In this document: positions 57,139-64,000 of the stretch, one piece after another
Layout: every line of letters starts with the position of its first letter
Position numbering within the stretch: the stretch's first letter is position 1
NCBI RefSeq assembly: GCF_022788715.1
Contig: NZ_CP085167.1
Span: 2,555,001 to 2,619,000, forward strand
Direction: 5' to 3'
DNA length: 64,000 nucleotides
Source: Sulfitobacter sp. DSM 110093
Lineage (GTDB): Bacteria > Pseudomonadota > Alphaproteobacteria > Rhodobacterales > Rhodobacteraceae
The notes under the pieces: generated by a model
The model's database searches: none
Told to the model about the DNA's origin: nothing
What the model saw: only the letters and a program-made list of their open reading frames with translations
Program-made: the position numbers and the translations under genes

Positions 57139-57669
57139 TTATTCCGCCGTGCGGAAGCTCCAGGCCTGATACGCCATCTTGGCGTCGTCGCAGGACTCCA
57201 GTGTCATTGCCTTGATCTGATTGGTATCGCTTCGGCCCGAGCGCGTATCTTCGCCAAGTGTCACACACGTTTCTGGGGCCGAGGCGGGTGTGATTGTTCC
57301 CGCATCGGTAAAGGTAAAGCTCTGCGCGTCAGACCCGTCACAGGATGCCAGTTCAAGTGCCGAACCTGCCTCGGTCGAGGCGGCCTGCATACAGACGTCG
57401 AACTTGGGCATATAGAAAACACCTTCGGCGAACTGGTCGGAATCAAATCCCTGATCAACAAAGATTTCGCCCTGCGGACTATAGCAGGTGTGGCCTTGCA
57501 ACCCATCAGCGGGGTCAGCCTGCGCGCCCTGCCCGCCGGAGATATCGATGCAGTAGCCGTCCTGAGTGTTGTCGAGCATATCAATAAGATTGATCTCGAC
57601 GGTTTCGGCTTGAGCCGCCGTGGCGATGAGCAAGGCGGCAATAGTTGTGCAGATTGGTTGACCGTTCAT
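57139..57669 (-). CDS. Secreted protein, possible ricin-B-like beta-trefoil
   Basis: A 176-residue protein with a signal peptide (cleavage near AAQAETV). The mature part has seven or more Cys and blocks such as GYCIDISGG, CMQAASTEAGSALELASCDG and a terminal QAWSFR that resemble QxW repeats of ricin-type beta-trefoil lectins. The assignment is pattern-based only. It is the last gene on the minus strand of the YHYH cluster, 46 bases after the previous gene, so it is probably co-transcribed. It may bind a glycan or another surface ligand; its role is not known. Confidence 0.6.
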   Translation of the reverse strand: MNGQPICTTIAALLIATAAQAETVEINLIDMLDNTQDGYCIDISGGQGAQADPADGLQGHTCYSPQGEIFVDQGFDSDQFAEGVFYMPKFDVCMQAASTEAGSALELASCDGSDAQSFTFTDAGTITPASAPETCVTLGEDTRSGRSDTNQIKAMTLESCDDAKMAYQAWSFRTAE

Positions 57670-57715
57670 GGTAATTTTCCTTGTTTGTGGTGTTGGCTTT
57701 CAGCTTTGGTGGCAC

Positions 57716-58357
57716 TCATTCAACCGTCAGGCGACACAGCACCGTATTGCTTTGCTCAAGGTCCGGCCCCCAGATGAACTCGGCAGTTCCGGTCCATGTG
57801 ACGTCACCGTAGCCCATCTTGGGGTCCACCTGTGCGGCAGTATAGACGTCGGCTTGCGGCCAATGGGATGCGTCAAAACCAGCGACATCCCAGCCTTCGG
57901 GTTCATCAGTGATGTCGTTGTCACAGACCCCTTCGCCTGCGACGGGGTTGGCTTCGTCCTCGCAGGCTTTATCGAGCGGTGCGGTATGGATGACCTGGCA
58001 TTGCCAGTCGGCGTTGCTGACCGCAACAGGTGCGCCGGTCGCATCCAAGATCTGCGCGATGATGCCGCCATCGCCCATTTGCTGTCGGCCTGTGCCGATG
58101 TATTCGAGGCCGGTATCATTCTCGATGAAATCCTTGGCGACAAGGCCGATCGTAAAGGGGCGCTCGGCCTCAAACTGAAAACTCTCGGCATTGAAGGAAC
58201 GCTCTGTTGTGATCGGAACGCTGTCTATTGCGACCTGTTCGCCATTGATGTGCATTTCGAACCAGTTGTCAGCCCAGACGTCGGCAGAGAAGACTTCGGC
58301 AGATAGGTTTGTTGCGTATAGCGCAAGTAGGGCAGTGGCGGTGAGAGCGCGTCTCAT
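57716..58357 (-). CDS. Secreted protein of unknown function with a beta-sandwich-like N-terminal part
   Basis: A 213-residue protein from the ATG at 58357 (leader MRRALTATALLALYATNLSA). The frame is open further upstream, but that part runs into the fusion gene and lacks a leader. The mature N-terminus SADVWADNWFEMHINGEQV resembles the ADN...NG strand of galactose-binding-like or PA14-type beta-sandwich modules. Cys-rich segments follow (CQVIHTAPLDKACEDE, GVCDND). I do not recognise a family. It lies 25 bases after the MFS-YHYH gene and probably belongs to the same operon. Confidence 0.7.
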   Translation of the reverse strand: MRRALTATALLALYATNLSAEVFSADVWADNWFEMHINGEQVAIDSVPITTERSFNAESFQFEAERPFTIGLVAKDFIENDTGLEYIGTGRQQMGDGGIIAQILDATGAPVAVSNADWQCQVIHTAPLDKACEDEANPVAGEGVCDNDITDEPEGWDVAGFDASHWPQADVYTAAQVDPKMGYGDVTWTGTAEFIWGPDLEQSNTVLCRLTVE

Positions 58358-58382
58358 GGAAGGTCTCCTGATGGAAATGAAG

Positions 58383-60671
58383 TTATGGTCGCGGGGGGCG
58401 TTGCTGTGTTGACGCATCGCATGTCGCCTCTGCGTCGCCACTGCTGCATCCGGTCTCGGCGGCGAAACATCCGATGACCTGATTTTCGGCAGTCGGGTTG
58501 ACGTGATAGTGGTAGCCGAGACCTTCAACCTCATGACCACGGCAAGTATCGAGGTCATCGGGTTCAATGCCATCCGCGTCCAAACGGTCGTAAATGTCGA
58601 AGCCGTCCATCGCGACGCCGATCATGTCGGCGTGCCCCACCACCACAGCCGCAACGCGCGCGCCGCAGCCTTCGGTGACACCGTGGTAGTGATAGCCTGT
58701 GTGCGGATTGATGTGCCCGGTGCAATCATCAAACGGCCCCAGCGTGTGCCCGCCAAGGATCAGGTCTAGGGGTGCCGGGGCGTAAAATTTCACCCCGTTG
58801 AAGGCAAGCCCAATCCCCGTGCTCGCCCCGATCCGATCGTCCGATTGTGCAACGGGAACAGGAGTCAGCGGGATGAAATAGGTCTGCGTGACGGTGTGGC
58901 CGACATAGCCAAGTTCGCATTCCACGCAAATATTGTCAGGCTGGCCCGTTTCGTTGGTCGGATCGCCCGCGACGATACAGCCAATCTCGCCCGCGCGAAC
59001 GTAGACTTCGCCGGTTTCGGGATCGAACATCTGCCAGGCATCGTCACCGTAGATTTTAGCAAGGTTCACGATAAATGCGCCATCCACATCACGCACCTTA
59101 CCGTCAACGAACCATTTACCGCCATCCTCTGCCGTGTCCGTGATCGTGCGCGGGCAAAAGGGGCCGGTGATGTGATCGGACGGGGCGGCGACGACCGTGA
59201 TCTTCAAACAGCTAGTCTGTGTTCCGCCCGACAACGTGCAGTCAGCGATCTCGGGGAGGCCGACAACCGTGGCGGTCTGAAACCGAGCCACGAGCTGGTC
59301 ATACCGCGCAACCTCTGCTGCCGATTGGGCGTTTGCAGCGCTGCTGAGGACAAGGACAGTCAGAGGTAAGGTTCTTAGCAATGTCAGCATGCGATTATCT
59401 TTAATCCGGTTTGATTTTGCTTCAAGCGTTACACGTTCAAGGAGCCGAGATGACATCTTGATTGGGCTGAGCAGAAATGGTTGCGGTGTTGGCGACGAAT
59501 TGCCGGTGTCAACCATCATCCACAAAACGGCGCATGTGGTTCCGACAAAGGCCAACAGCAGTCCGTAGGTCCAAATCAAGTTTTGCGAATTCATGGAAAC
59601 AACCTGAATGCCGACAGCACCCATCATCGTAACGCTGAACTGGATAAGTGCCGCAGCCGAGCCGGTATCACGAGATTGCTGGTCCAGCATCAGGTTCGCG
59701 CCGGGAACGCGTACGGTGATAACCGCGACTGTTGTTGGCGCAACCAGCGCAGCGAATAGCCAAGGCGACAGCCCTCCGACAAGCAACATTGCTATGCCAG
59801 CCAGCACCACCACCACAAAGCTACCCAGAACGATGCTTTGAACCGGGATGACACGCGCAAGTCGCAGATACAGGACGGGTCCGAAGGCGGCGCATATGGC
59901 ATTGAAAGCGAAAATGAAGCTGAACCCCTGCTCGGACATGCCGAACCCGTCGATATAGACATAAGCGGCGATACCGATAAACGCCATCAGGCACATGGGA
60001 GCCATTGAGAAGATCAATAACAGGTAGGCGAAGCGCGAGTTTGCGAGAACTGCACCCAATCGGTTCCAAGTCTTCAGGACAGGGTCAGTCGATTTCTCTT
60101 CAAGCGTCTCCCGATAAAGTATGACGAGCGAAGCTGCGACGCAGCCGAAACCGGCAAGAACGATGAACAATATCTGCCAAGACGCGATCTTAAGCAGGAA
60201 GGCCCCCAGTACCGGCGCAACCATAGGAGCCACGATAACCAGTGACATGATGATCGCCAGTGCTTTCTCCCGGTCGCGACCGTCGAACAAATCCTTGACG
60301 ATCGTAGTGCCGATGACAGTGACGCCACCGCCACCAAATCCCTGCAGCACGCGGAACGCGATCAGCGCTTCGATGTTGAACGCGAATGCGCACAGAAGGC
60401 TGCCTGGGATATACAGCCCCAGTGCGGCAAACAGGATCGGTTTGCGACCGGTGCGTTCGCTCAGTGGTCCCCAGAACAGCATGCCCACGGCGAAGGCGAC
60501 CATGTAGGCTCCGAGCGTCAGGTTCACCATCGCGGTGCTGGTTGAGAAGATCTCGGCCATTTTCGGCAGGGCAGGCAGGTAAAGATCCATCGTCAGAGGC
60601 GGAAATGCACCCAACACGATCAAGAAAAATAGAATTCCTTTCCTGCCCAATGCCGGTTGCTCAACTTTCAT
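58383..60671 (-). CDS. Fusion of a Bcr/CflA-type MFS transporter with a C-terminal YHYH-domain protein
   Basis: 762 residues from the ATG at 60671 (GGAAGGA ribosome site; the frame also has a TTG at 60689). Residues 1 to about 390 form a full-length 12-helix drug-transporter-like MFS protein (GPLSERTGRKPIL, LQGFGGGGVTVIG, RDREKALAIIMSL). After a 35-residue linker comes a Met at 428 (base 59390) with a signal-peptide-like stretch (LLRTLPLTVLVLSSAANAQS), then a Cys-rich YHYH domain. That domain has YHYH at 660-663 and 720-723 and a tail CDAS...RPPRP. The domain closely resembles the separate protein at 61451-62434. Either one polypeptide with a periplasmic domain, or two proteins with an internal start; the ribosome site before 59390 is weak. 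Confidence 0.85.
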   Translation of the reverse strand: MKVEQPALGRKGILFFLIVLGAFPPLTMDLYLPALPKMAEIFSTSTAMVNLTLGAYMVAFAVGMLFWGPLSERTGRKPILFAALGLYIPGSLLCAFAFNIEALIAFRVLQGFGGGGVTVIGTTIVKDLFDGRDREKALAIIMSLVIVAPMVAPVLGAFLLKIASWQILFIVLAGFGCVAASLVILYRETLEEKSTDPVLKTWNRLGAVLANSRFAYLLLIFSMAPMCLMAFIGIAAYVYIDGFGMSEQGFSFIFAFNAICAAFGPVLYLRLARVIPVQSIVLGSFVVVVLAGIAMLLVGGLSPWLFAALVAPTTVAVITVRVPGANLMLDQQSRDTGSAAALIQFSVTMMGAVGIQVVSMNSQNLIWTYGLLLAFVGTTCAVLWMMVDTGNSSPTPQPFLLSPIKMSSRLLERVTLEAKSNRIKDNRMLTLLRTLPLTVLVLSSAANAQSAAEVARYDQLVARFQTATVVGLPEIADCTLSGGTQTSCLKITVVAAPSDHITGPFCPRTITDTAEDGGKWFVDGKVRDVDGAFIVNLAKIYGDDAWQMFDPETGEVYVRAGEIGCIVAGDPTNETGQPDNICVECELGYVGHTVTQTYFIPLTPVPVAQSDDRIGASTGIGLAFNGVKFYAPAPLDLILGGHTLGPFDDCTGHINPHTGYHYHGVTEGCGARVAAVVVGHADMIGVAMDGFDIYDRLDADGIEPDDLDTCRGHEVEGLGYHYHVNPTAENQVIGCFAAETGCSSGDAEATCDASTQQRPPRP

Positions 60672-60811
60672 CGGAATCTGTCCTTCCAAGAGTATTGTAT
60701 GGTCCTGCGCTTTCGAGGGGGCGGCATGCCGGGCAATTCCAAGACTTCCGCAACAGCATCTATCGGGATCGCTGAAAGTGTGACTAATTTTGCCACTCTT
60801 TCTAATTTCAT
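60668..60811 (-). CDS. Small ORF (47 aa) with ATGA overlaps at both ends
   Basis: The frame begins at an ATG (60811) that overlaps the cytochrome b561 stop as ATGA. It ends at a TGA (60668) that overlaps the MFS ATG as ATGA, so it fills the whole gap. The peptide has an amphipathic first half (MKLERVAKLVTLSAIPIDAV), a Pro-rich turn (LPGMPPP) and a basic tail (RKRRTIQY, then KDRFR). No signal peptide or known family is seen. The double coupling suggests a real translated gene or a translational bridge that feeds ribosomes to the MFS gene. GGAG inside the b561 gene is the best ribosome site. Confidence 0.5.
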   Translation of the reverse strand: MKLERVAKLVTLSAIPIDAVAEVLELPGMPPPRKRRTIQYSWKDRFR

Positions 60812-61344
60812 CCGGCCATGCGCTCCAGTACGCCGTCCTGTCGCACTATTCTGTGCCAGATGACGGCCATTGCGATATGCCCGAGCACCAAAAGCGCCAG
60901 AACCCAACCCATCTCGCCATGCCATTCGGATGCGACCTGCATCCACGCAACCTCGACCGCGCGCGGCGCGAAAATCTCAATGCCGAGATAACTAAACCCG
61001 CGGGTGCTGCCTGCGGCCGCCAGAATACGGCTGGCCGGGACGATCACCATAAGGGCATAGATCGCGGCGTGTCCTGCGACCGCGGCCGTTCCAATGCGGC
61101 CAGATTGTTCTGGGCGCTTGGAAATGTTCATTAAGCCCCAGACCCCCCGGACCAGAACCAGAAAGAACAGCGTGATTCCGAGGTCGGTGTGATAGCTCCA
61201 TAGAGCTTCGCGCAAGGCGTTCTCGCGCGGCAAAGCCCAATGCGCGGCGGCAGAAACAAACTGCGCCGCAAAAAGGGCCGCCATGCCCCAGTGCAGCAAT
61301 CGACTGACAAGACCGTAGCGGGCGGGTGTGTCTGAAAGTGTCAC
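60808..61344 (-). CDS. Cytochrome b561-type membrane b-haem protein
   Basis: A 178-residue four-helix protein of the bacterial cytochrome b561/YodB-like family. Candidate haem ligands are His18 (LLHWG), His52 (YHTDLG), His142 (WHGEMGW) and His156 (LGHIAMA). The start codon is GTG with AAGG upstream. Such proteins pass electrons between the quinone pool and periplasmic acceptors. It is embedded between YHYH-domain genes, so it may be their redox partner; that link is inference. Confidence 0.87.
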   Translation of the reverse strand: MTLSDTPARYGLVSRLLHWGMAALFAAQFVSAAAHWALPRENALREALWSYHTDLGITLFFLVLVRGVWGLMNISKRPEQSGRIGTAAVAGHAAIYALMVIVPASRILAAAGSTRGFSYLGIEIFAPRAVEVAWMQVASEWHGEMGWVLALLVLGHIAMAVIWHRIVRQDGVLERMAG

Positions 61345-61407
61345 TTTGATATTAGCCTTAGGTTTCCAGTTTTTACATTCGGTGTCTTAATTTACGCCGT
61401 TCCGGTT

Positions 61408-61427
61408 GGTCGGGCCGGTTCCCGACC
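61408..61427 (-). promoter_or_regulatory. Hairpin between a YHYH gene and the cytochrome b561 gene
   Basis: GGTCGGG (61408-61414) and CCCGACC (61421-61427) form a perfect 7-bp stem with a 6-base loop, 24 bases after the YHYH gene stop on the minus strand. No U-run follows; intercistronic attenuation or message protection is possible. Confidence 0.5.
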
Positions 61428-61450
61428 GTCCCGGCATCTCACCTTTTTCC

Positions 61451-62434
61451 CTATGGGCGCTGTGGACGCGCGGAGGCGTCACAGATGCCGTCAGGGTTAT
61501 TCAGTGTGCAACCGGCTTGCGCAGTCATACAGCCTAAGATCGCGTTCGAACCTGCCGCACCCGCGTGGTAGTAATAAACGCCATCATCCCCGACGCGGCC
61601 GTTACATTGGTCAAGACCTGTGGGATGCGACCCATCTGCCATCAGGTGCGGAAAGATCGCGTAGCCATCCATCGCGATGCCAATTTGTGCGCCTTTGCCA
61701 CCGTCGTCAGTCGCGACAGGGCTATCTTCCAGACAATCGGTGACAGCATGATAATGGTAGCCGACATGGGGATTGATGTGCCCACCGCAATCATCGAAGG
61801 CCGCAATCGTGTAGGCGCTTAGGATTGCATCAACCGGCGCAGGACCATCCAACCGCACGCCGTTATAAGCGACCCCGGACCCGGTGCGACCCGTCTCGCC
61901 CGCATTATCGGCGGCGATGGGTTCAAGCGGGATCACATAGGTCAGTGTGGTGTCGTCAGAAATATATTCCGGAAGGCATTGGACACAGTAGTTCTGGTAT
62001 TCCTCCGCAACATCGGGACGTGCCGCTGCTTCGCAAGCCTCAAGCGTGCCTGTGTAGCGGACATCTCCGGTGGTTTCATCAAACAGTTGCCAGTTCGTGT
62101 CGCCATAAAATTCGGCGAGGTTAGCAATAAAGTCGCCGTCGACATCATGGACCTCGCCGTTTTCCAGCCAGATGCCGCCCGCTTCTGGGCCTTGCGAAAT
62201 GTTGGTCGGGCACCACGGGCCAGGTGTGTAATCCAACGGATTGCCGCTGACCGTGATAGAAAAACATTCGGTCTGCGCGCCGCCCGAAAGTGTGCATTCC
62301 ACGACCTCGGGGCCGGAAATGACATCCGCTGAGACGAAGAAGGTGGAAATCTCGGCCAGACGTTCATCGGTCTGGGCAAAGGCACTGGTTGCGCTGACTG
62401 CGACAAGGAGTGCGGAAAGATAGGTGCGGTTCAT
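61451..62434 (-). CDS. Exported YHYH-domain protein (second in the cluster)
   Basis: A 327-residue secreted or periplasmic protein with a Sec leader (cleavage near SAFAQTD). The YHYH signature is at 226-229 in a DDCGGHINPHVGYHYHAVTDC block, with a second variant YYYH at 287-290. Other conserved blocks are VECTLSGGAQTECFSITVS, PGPWCP, VHDVDGDFIANLAEFYGD and IGIAMDGYAIF. At least a dozen Cys suggest disulphides or metal binding. The YHYH family (PF14240) has no established function that I know of. It closely resembles the C-terminal half of the MFS fusion, including the Cys-Asp-Ala-Ser tail. It starts 21 bases after the upstream YHYH gene. Confidence 0.85.
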   Translation of the reverse strand: MNRTYLSALLVAVSATSAFAQTDERLAEISTFFVSADVISGPEVVECTLSGGAQTECFSITVSGNPLDYTPGPWCPTNISQGPEAGGIWLENGEVHDVDGDFIANLAEFYGDTNWQLFDETTGDVRYTGTLEACEAAARPDVAEEYQNYCVQCLPEYISDDTTLTYVIPLEPIAADNAGETGRTGSGVAYNGVRLDGPAPVDAILSAYTIAAFDDCGGHINPHVGYHYHAVTDCLEDSPVATDDGGKGAQIGIAMDGYAIFPHLMADGSHPTGLDQCNGRVGDDGVYYYHAGAAGSNAILGCMTAQAGCTLNNPDGICDASARPQRP

Positions 62435-62455
62435 TTCAGACGCCTCGATGAAGTA

Positions 62456-63595
62456 CTATTGGTTGGGTGGTGTTGGCAGGGCGTCGCGCAGCGCAGCATC
62501 ATCCACGCCGAGCGTTTCGGCGACCTCGGCAAGGTCGGCCTCACGACCACCGGCATCGTCAATCGCTTGCATCAATGCTTCGGCTGTCACGCCAAGGGAC
62601 GCGGCCGCCTCATCAAAACCCGGCGGCAACTGACCGCCTTGGGGGCCACCGTTCGCTCTTTCTGCGCCGATCCCCCCATCCGCCGTTGTCGCGAAATTGT
62701 CCTCGGCCATCACGCCAACCAGGCACGCGGGCAGGTTCGGAAAGCTTTCAGAGGCATGGTAGTGATAGGTCTCGCCAAGCACTGTCGGTCCGATGTGCCC
62801 GCCGCATGCGTCCAGCCCTTCCGGCCCTTTACCATCAGCTTCCATGCTGCCGAACATTGGAAAGCCATCGAAGGCGTAACCGAACTGCGCGCTCGCATCC
62901 TGCGTCAGTGCGCAATCGGCCGAAACGCCTTCGGCTTCCAGCGCGGTTTCAATGTCGGTAGACGTGCCGTGCCAGTGATACCAGCCACCGGGGTCAATGT
63001 GCCCGCCGCAAACGTCCAGCGCAGGCAGATGGCCGGTGTCCAACACCGAAGGTGCGTCGGCAAAGATTGGCACCCCGTCGAGTGCAACGCCAACCGATGC
63101 CACAGTGCCGAGGTCGGTCGGCGTTTCCGCCATGACCGGATCCACCGGCAGGCGCATCGTGATCACGACAGTGTCATCTTCGGATGCTTCCAGACAAGCA
63201 TGATCTGCATCGGGGCGGCCGCCTGCTCCGGGATCGCTGATCGCGATGTCGCCGTTGTCGTCATAGAATTGATAGCCCTGAGCGGCCAGCATCTCGAAAA
63301 GGGCGCGGTCAAGCCGATAAAGCCCAGCCTCTTCGCCGTCCCAATCCCAGATGCCGCCTATCTCGGCGAGGTTGGATGGGCAAAACGGCCCGGTCTCCAG
63401 CCCGTCCGGTTTGTATGCGACTGTGAACTCATAGCACTCGGCTTGGGTGCCATCCTCAAGCGCGCATTCGACGATTGCAGGATCTTGCGTAAACGCAGTT
63501 TGCGCAAACTGGGCGGGGTCGGGATGTGCGTAAACCGCACCAGGGATGAGCAGCGCAAATGACGCTGACGCTGCCAGGAGTGTGGATGGTCTCAT
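62456..63595 (-). CDS. Exported YHYH-domain protein (first in the cluster)
   Basis: A 379-residue exported protein (leader to about AVYAHPD). It has two equivalent signature blocks: DVCGGHIDPGGWYHWHG (YHWH at 206-209) and DACGGHIGP...TYHYH (277-280). Each comes after a GVALDGVPIF- or GYAFDGFPMF-type strand, so the domain looks internally duplicated. The C-terminal 65 residues form a helical tail with two LGV-type repeats (LGVTAEALMQA, LGVDDAALRDA), absent from the other two family members here. The start overlaps the MarR-type gene stop as ATGA, which couples it to its regulator. Function unknown. Confidence 0.85.
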   Translation of the reverse strand: MRPSTLLAASASFALLIPGAVYAHPDPAQFAQTAFTQDPAIVECALEDGTQAECYEFTVAYKPDGLETGPFCPSNLAEIGGIWDWDGEEAGLYRLDRALFEMLAAQGYQFYDDNGDIAISDPGAGGRPDADHACLEASEDDTVVITMRLPVDPVMAETPTDLGTVASVGVALDGVPIFADAPSVLDTGHLPALDVCGGHIDPGGWYHWHGTSTDIETALEAEGVSADCALTQDASAQFGYAFDGFPMFGSMEADGKGPEGLDACGGHIGPTVLGETYHYHASESFPNLPACLVGVMAEDNFATTADGGIGAERANGGPQGGQLPPGFDEAAASLGVTAEALMQAIDDAGGREADLAEVAETLGVDDAALRDALPTPPNQ

Positions 63596-64000
63596 CTATT
63601 TGTCTCCAATGGTTCGGTTTGTTCGGCATGCACAGCGCGACCGGGGGCGTGACCGCCCAGGCTGTCGCGCAGCGCGCGCGTTAAAGTGGAAAGCGTTTGC
63701 GCGTCAGTTTCACCCAAACGCGCAGCGATCATCGCGTCGATATCGCGCCATGCTTCATGAATATCCGCGAGCAAATCGCGGCCCCTATCCGTCAGTCGAA
63801 GGATGTTACTTCGGGTCTCATTGGGGTCGATAACGCGGGTGATGTAGCCCCCATCTATCAGGCGCGCCGTCATGGTGCTCATACTGGAGGGGGTGATGCC
63901 GAACGCGCGGGCCAACGTCACCTGTGACGCAGGCTCCATCCGGGCAAGCGCGTCAATCATCCGCGCCTGCCTTGGTCGCATGTCAATACGCGCAAGACGC
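63592..64000 (-). CDS. MarR-family transcriptional regulator, N-terminus cut by the window edge
   Basis: The frame is open through the window end. An ATG at 63981 exists, but the coding frame continues before it (RLARID), and MarR proteins normally have another helix there, so I treat it as partial. The winged HTH is clear: ARMIDALARMEPASQVTLAR, FGITPSSMSTMTARLIDGG and DPNETRSNILRLTDRGRDLL. It overlaps the first YHYH gene by 4 bases, so it is transcribed with the cluster and probably controls it in response to a small aromatic or oxidative signal, as usual in the family. Confidence 0.88.
   Translation of the reverse strand, partial: RLARIDMRPRQARMIDALARMEPASQVTLARAFGITPSSMSTMTARLIDGGYITRVIDPNETRSNILRLTDRGRDLLADIHEAWRDIDAMIAARLGETDAQTLSTLTRALRDSLGGHAPGRAVHAEQTEPLETNR

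Follow-up and report, generated by a model that had tools for sequence, protein, structure and literature searches.

The closest described relatives of the gene set examined here are proteins carrying the YHYH domain (PF14240), phage tail-associated ones among them. In PMC7824862 this domain is predicted to be a metal-dependent hydrolase with three histidines and one aspartate and is described as frequently joined to lectins or to tail proteins; PMC11992049 names YHYH as a diatom-prevalent Pfam. The open-licence papers that we found only predict a function for PF14240 or name the family in passing, and we found no description in that literature of a set combining YHYH proteins, a MarR regulator and the protein we call C10. 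The proteins of our locus resemble the phage forms of PMC7824862 in scoring above the cut-off of the same Pfam, in their conserved His and Asp residues and in their lectin-domain company, which the phage forms also keep. In contrast to the phage proteins they are cellular, predicted exported and Cys-rich, contain an internal DxCxGH...YHYH repeat, and belong to a regulator-bearing gene set instead of a virion. A phage tblastn search with YHYH2 returned no relative at E≤1e-3.

For C10 the closest known proteins are CBM67, the N-terminal domains of GH78 rhamnosidases (3w5m), and a Pleurotus ostreatus lectin (6kc2); unlike these, C10 is free-standing and predicted exported, without a catalytic domain. 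The cytochrome b561 of the locus belongs to the prokaryotic family (PF01292) and lies next to genes of predicted exported proteins, as in YceI-b561 pairs. YceI is a known, independent partner of b561, whereas the neighbours here are YHYH and C10, and in a minority of loci only.

Composition of the gene set

We analysed a 64-kb window (G000:C1:2555001-2619000) of a 4.34-Mb genome. Open reading frames and profile scans placed all named genes on the minus strand of this window between 57139 and 64000, in the order MarR, YHYH1, YHYH2, b561, MFS+YHYH3 frame, C10 and ricin-B lectin, with successive gaps of -4, 21, 106, 136, 25 and 46 nt. The MarR-family regulator (63592..64000; PF12802, 46.5 bits, cut-off 27) has its 5' end about 71 nt outside the window (L004:8592-9071); the codon-usage gene caller made it 159 aa, to window-equivalent 64071, and the longest ORF 173 aa. 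YHYH1 (62456..63595, 379 aa), YHYH2 (61451..62434, 327 aa) and YHYH3 matched PF14240 with 61.8, 44.8 and 41.0 bits (cut-off 25) and were the sole matches at E≤0.001 in the genome. YHYH1 carries two intact DxCGGH...YH(W/Y)H blocks and a C-terminal extension; the second block of YHYH2 is degenerate. A cytochrome b561-type membrane protein follows (60808..61344, 178 aa; PF01292, 86.0 bits, cut-off 30.1), and then a frame (58383..60671) whose first ~400 residues are a Bcr/CflA-type MFS transporter (TIGR00710, 208.1 bits, cut-off 200.9, fused frame scanned) and which runs into YHYH3. The three YHYH proteins, b561, efflux-type MFS and MarR named in an earlier, sequence-only reading thus each scored above their profile cut-offs. 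That reading had also proposed an exported beta-trefoil and an exported beta-sandwich-like protein. The former is a ricin-B-type lectin (57139..57669, 176 aa; PF00652, 44.3 bits, cut-off 29), and the latter is C10 (57716..58357, 213 aa), which has a predicted jelly-roll fold and no Pfam match above any cut-off. Export of YHYH1, YHYH2, C10 and the lectin was judged from N-termini read by eye rather than with a predictor.

The layout agreed with that reading only in part. Eight genes had been counted; all lie on the minus strand, but because MFS and YHYH3 form one uninterrupted frame there are seven frames, unless YHYH3 begins at the internal ATG 59390 (58383..59390, 335 aa), where a signal-peptide-like stretch starts. 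Likewise, several ATGA overlaps had been described, but MarR-YHYH1 is the only pair of named genes with one; two more flank a 47-codon minus-strand ORF read from the sequence (60668..60811), which begins in the b561 stop and ends in the MFS start. No stop separates the MFS and YHYH3 parts of 58383-60671. Since MFS relatives beside YHYH in three other loci (L005, L023 and L033) end at their own stop at 401-414 aa, this stop was probably lost in our lineage. A 12-helix transporter has both ends inside, so the signal-like stretch would place a fused YHYH domain outside too. The codon-usage gene caller did not pick the 47-codon ORF, and the b561-MFS gap in L023 is only 71 nt, compared with 136 nt here; the ORF is possibly a coupled small gene, or a chance frame.

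Promoter and terminator scans found 2 and 4 sites, fewer than the 3.7 and 7.7 in shuffled sequence. Among the five proteins scanned with the anti-phage defence models of PADLOC, YHYH1, YHYH2, C10 and the ricin-B lectin gave no match and MarR gave weak matches to unrelated models (E 5e-4 or worse); a PHROGs scan of four proteins gave nothing useful.

Invariant residues and subfamilies of the YHYH domain

YHYH was present in 110 of 115 fetched stretches. Removing 10 whose YHYH proteins were near-identical to others left 100 loci, no two of which share 1.5 kb at 97% identity; YHYH1 contexts are over-represented among them because YHYH1 was the query for 60 of the 115 stretches. Our three proteins were aligned with 31 stop-to-stop ORFs (the best PF14240 matches) and the 200-480 aa proteins of the 100 loci. 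From these 155 rows, seven that had entered twice via overlapping fetches were dropped, and residues were counted on 148 proteins with YHYH2 numbering.

D214, H219, Y226 and H229 were present in 148/148 proteins, H227 in 147, D256 in 146 and D275 in 144. D214, H219, H227 and H229 are kept in all three of our proteins and, under our own assignment of residues to the prediction in PMC7824862, would match its His triad and Asp. The repeated Cys/GHI...YHYH blocks described earlier were confirmed by the alignment, which shows two copies of DxCxGH...YHYH in each of the three YHYH proteins. In the second block, H280, H288 and H290 were found in 57/57 members of the YHYH1 clade, in 22, 26 and 25 of the 32 members of the YHYH2/3 clade, and in 92, 96 and 108 of the 148 overall. 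Two of these three His are lost in our YHYH2, where R280 and Y288 stand instead, whereas the whole series D214/H219/H227/H229/D256/D275/H280/H288/H290 is present in 57/57 YHYH1-clade proteins. C153 occurs in 31/32 YHYH2/3-clade proteins as against 0/57 in the YHYH1 clade, and C216 is kept in 113/148. As the Cys residues fall into such subfamily-specific sets, they more likely have a structural role in disulfides than a place in one metal site common to all. With the shared His/Cys metal site that the earlier reading proposed to look for, the invariant His/Asp set is consistent, but the Cys sets differ between subfamilies.

In a midpoint-rooted FastTree phylogeny of 103 proteins, YHYH1 belongs to a clade of 57 members (support 0.814), and YHYH2 and YHYH3 share a clade of 32 (0.997). 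Within the latter the YHYH2/YHYH3 split has a support of only 0.554, and YHYH3 groups with L165_11 and L124_9 (0.997). Since YHYH1 and YHYH2/3 fall in separate clades, the three proteins are, on this tree, old paralogues rather than the outcome of a recent triplication at this locus; 13 loci hold members of both clades. The AlphaFold2 model of YHYH2 reached a pLDDT of 90.7. No solved relative of this whole-protein model was detected among the fold matches listed, and a known fold beyond them is possible; the two viral-library fold matches at E≤0.001 are both named YHYH proteins.

YHYH proteins were found in 52/295 sampled family genomes (51 above cut-off), and YHYH2-type proteins in 15/292 sampled order genomes at E≤1e-40, our own included. 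A relative at E≤1e-5 was present in 5 of 72,556 plasmid records, including one of Acaryochloris. Alpha- and Gammaproteobacteria have relatives of YHYH1, and so do MAGs that bear the labels Acidobacteriota, Anaerolineae and Trueperaceae, which may be wrong. PF14240 is a large family: one word-limited search gave 2272 of its proteins at E≤0.001 among 7994 candidates scored.

Regulators, lectin-like proteins and other neighbours

Neighbours in the 100 loci were taken from the codon-usage gene caller, and genes within four of a YHYH gene were counted as near, a near/far comparison that is weak by design as 48% of genes are near and the stretches span at most ~21 kb. Near YHYH were 18/18 MarR genes (16 loci), 14/14 C10 genes (14 loci), 15/16 response regulators (13 loci), 5/5 b561, 5/5 PEBP, 3/4 ricin-B and, besides our own fused MFS, 3/3 MFS genes. 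Among 73 families only MarR, C10 and the OmpR-type response regulator stood well clear; b561 did not. The expected link between MarR and YHYH was borne out, with 16 of the 18 MarR genes (15 loci) directly adjoining YHYH and with 4-nt MarR-YHYH overlaps in three loci. Seven of these 16 genes lie upstream of YHYH in the same orientation and nine are divergent. Among the closest architectures are L019 (divergent membrane protein, MarR, YHYH, YHYH, C10, YHYH, PEBP), L023 (YHYH, YHYH, b561, MFS) and L166 (YHYH, C10, ricin-B, b561).

Beyond the window, MarR is flanked by the gene of a divergent multi-pass membrane protein (L004:9085-9882, plus strand). Members of its family are found near YHYH in 6 loci, and one relative has a weak, sub-cut-off match to Rce1-like CAAX proteases. 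Two genes upstream of MarR lies a TonB-dependent receptor of siderophore/haem type (L004:9976-11940, minus strand).

The predicted structure of C10 is a beta-jelly-roll as in CBM67 and GH78 N-terminal domains. By sequence the resemblance is not significant: the C10 profile reached only E 5.7 against 3w5m, and Pfam Bac_rhamnosid_N scored 15.3 bits, under its cut-off of 25. D31-N32 is invariant in 24/24 C10 proteins, and this pair may correspond to the calcium-binding acidic pair of SaRha78A. An antithrombin match (E 0.025) was judged to be chance because it covers only ~50 residues of a serpin. C10 relatives are called 'PEBP family protein' in public records with an empty Pfam column, possibly a transferred misnomer. 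C10 was found in 22 of the 295 sampled family genomes. YHYH is present in 20 of these, in G007 with a score below the curated cut-off, and absent from the other two, G066 and G189. YHYH was thus present in 20/22 genomes with C10 compared with 32/273 without it (Fisher P 4e-15); the two lie within ~2 kb in 12 of the 20 genomes, and elsewhere or on another contig in 8. L134 and L166 have a ricin-B relative next to YHYH, and L160 has one away from it. C10 and the ricin-B protein look like glycan-binding rather than redox proteins.

In distant bacteria a HupE/UreJ-type permease adjoins YHYH (L056 by PF13795, L058 and L165 by clustering). A His-rich family of 165-172 aa, c25, is near YHYH in L037, L064, L095, L106, L107 and L121, and in L121 is followed by an RND-type efflux pair.

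Proposed function and rival explanations

On the basis of gene content, families, residue conservation, recurrent neighbours and predicted folds, we tentatively propose, as a reading that may well prove wrong, an accessory, patchy, MarR-controlled module of YHYH metalloenzymes and lectin-like proteins directed at glycans or the envelope. When an inducer appears, MarR would relieve repression of a presumably co-transcribed set, and the YHYH proteins would be exported together with the lectin-like proteins. The YHYH proteins would be disulfide-stabilised domains that bind metal through the invariant D...H...Y-H-x-H and further Asp, probably metal-dependent hydrolases or closely similar metalloenzymes whose substrate is a glycan or a polymer of the envelope. 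Glycan binding would come from the CBM67-like C10 and from the ricin-B lectin, and b561 and the MFS pump would be optional accessories. The gene set is more than chance, and because parts of it recur in other bacteria it may be a genuine surface system that has yet to be characterised.

Instead, as the sequence-only reading had it, the YHYH proteins could be redox-active metalloproteins of the envelope to which b561 passes electrons from the quinone pool. We searched for b561 in 23 of 64 YHYH-bearing genomes, 20 from the family sample (mostly with repeated-block YHYH) and three of the 12 first met in the order sample. All 23 had matches, at 72 places when two adjacent fragments are counted as one and two matches below the cut-off are included, and in five (G000, our own, and G052, G134, G232 and G286) b561 lay within 4 kb of YHYH where ~0.33 pairs were expected, giving P 4e-4 for the four besides our own. 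However, the choice of genomes was not blind, as G134 and G232 were known beforehand to have b561 beside YHYH; without these and our own, two remain and P is about 0.04. In G052 the b561 gene comes after a gene that is YceI-like by reading, and in G286 it is in two fragments. A di-haem oxidoreductase, c54 (PF06537, one member scanned), beside YHYH in the non-redundant L008 and L016 also argues for a redox role, but most YHYH loci are without b561, which clustering placed at 5/100 (P 0.025, uncorrected among 73 families) and the Pfam profile additionally at L117 (from G052) and L102 (from G286). The proposed co-occurrence of b561 with PF14240 is seen in that b561 lies near YHYH more often than expected, though the evidence is thinner than the first P suggests. 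A b561-fed oxidoreductase system is consistent with the invariant His/Asp set and with this nearness, but b561 is not supported as the core and the partners look like glycan binders; we regard it as quite unlikely. Because of the lectin-like partners and the published hydrolase prediction, we modestly favour a glycan-directed metalloenzyme over it.

Alternatively, YHYH may buffer or deliver a periplasmic transition metal in acquisition or detoxification, with transport served by the exporter, the TonB receptor and b561, the last by reducing the metal. The invariant His-rich motif, the HupE/UreJ-type permeases, c25 and the receptor gene upstream of our MarR would all suit such a role. HupE is found at 3/100 loci only, though, lectin-like C10 is the commoner partner, the TonB-receptor cluster is absent from the 40 most frequent YHYH-near families listed, and the accompanying regulator is MarR rather than a metal type; we regard this explanation as unlikely. 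It is similarly improbable that there is no single system, and that secreted-protein genes were acquired independently in a permissive accessory locus whose neighbours are uninformative on function. The patchy distribution (52/295), the varying locus composition and the separation of C10 from YHYH in 8/20 genomes are what this would predict, and both the MFS-YHYH3 fusion and the decay of the second block in YHYH2 resemble drift. Against it stand the direct MarR adjacency with its 4-nt overlaps, the C10-YHYH co-occurrence, and the deep paralogues kept together in 13 loci.

Returning to the glycan-directed metalloenzyme, the family as a whole could represent a metalloenzyme fold without a solved relative. 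Bacteria would employ its old paralogues, controlled by MarR or by two-component regulators, in an extracellular system guided by lectins, and this system would occur in altered form on phage tails and in diatoms too. We hold this wider reading to be rather doubtful; if true, one gene set can open the function of thousands of little-studied proteins. With three paralogues, a regulator linked to them, two lectin-like partners open to testing and a set of residues found to be invariant, the cluster makes YHYH domain function directly testable, and its value is as a tractable test bed for this little-studied family.

Two further neighbours recur near YHYH. A small predicted exported Cys protein with the motif RPPxEAxxAC is found in L008, L009, L010, L012, L046 and L154, accompanied by two-component genes in four of the six loci and by MarR in two; the one member scanned had no Pfam match. 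A patatin-like phospholipase directly follows YHYH, with two-component genes upstream, in L016 (PF01734) and, by clustering, in L012, L013 and L162.
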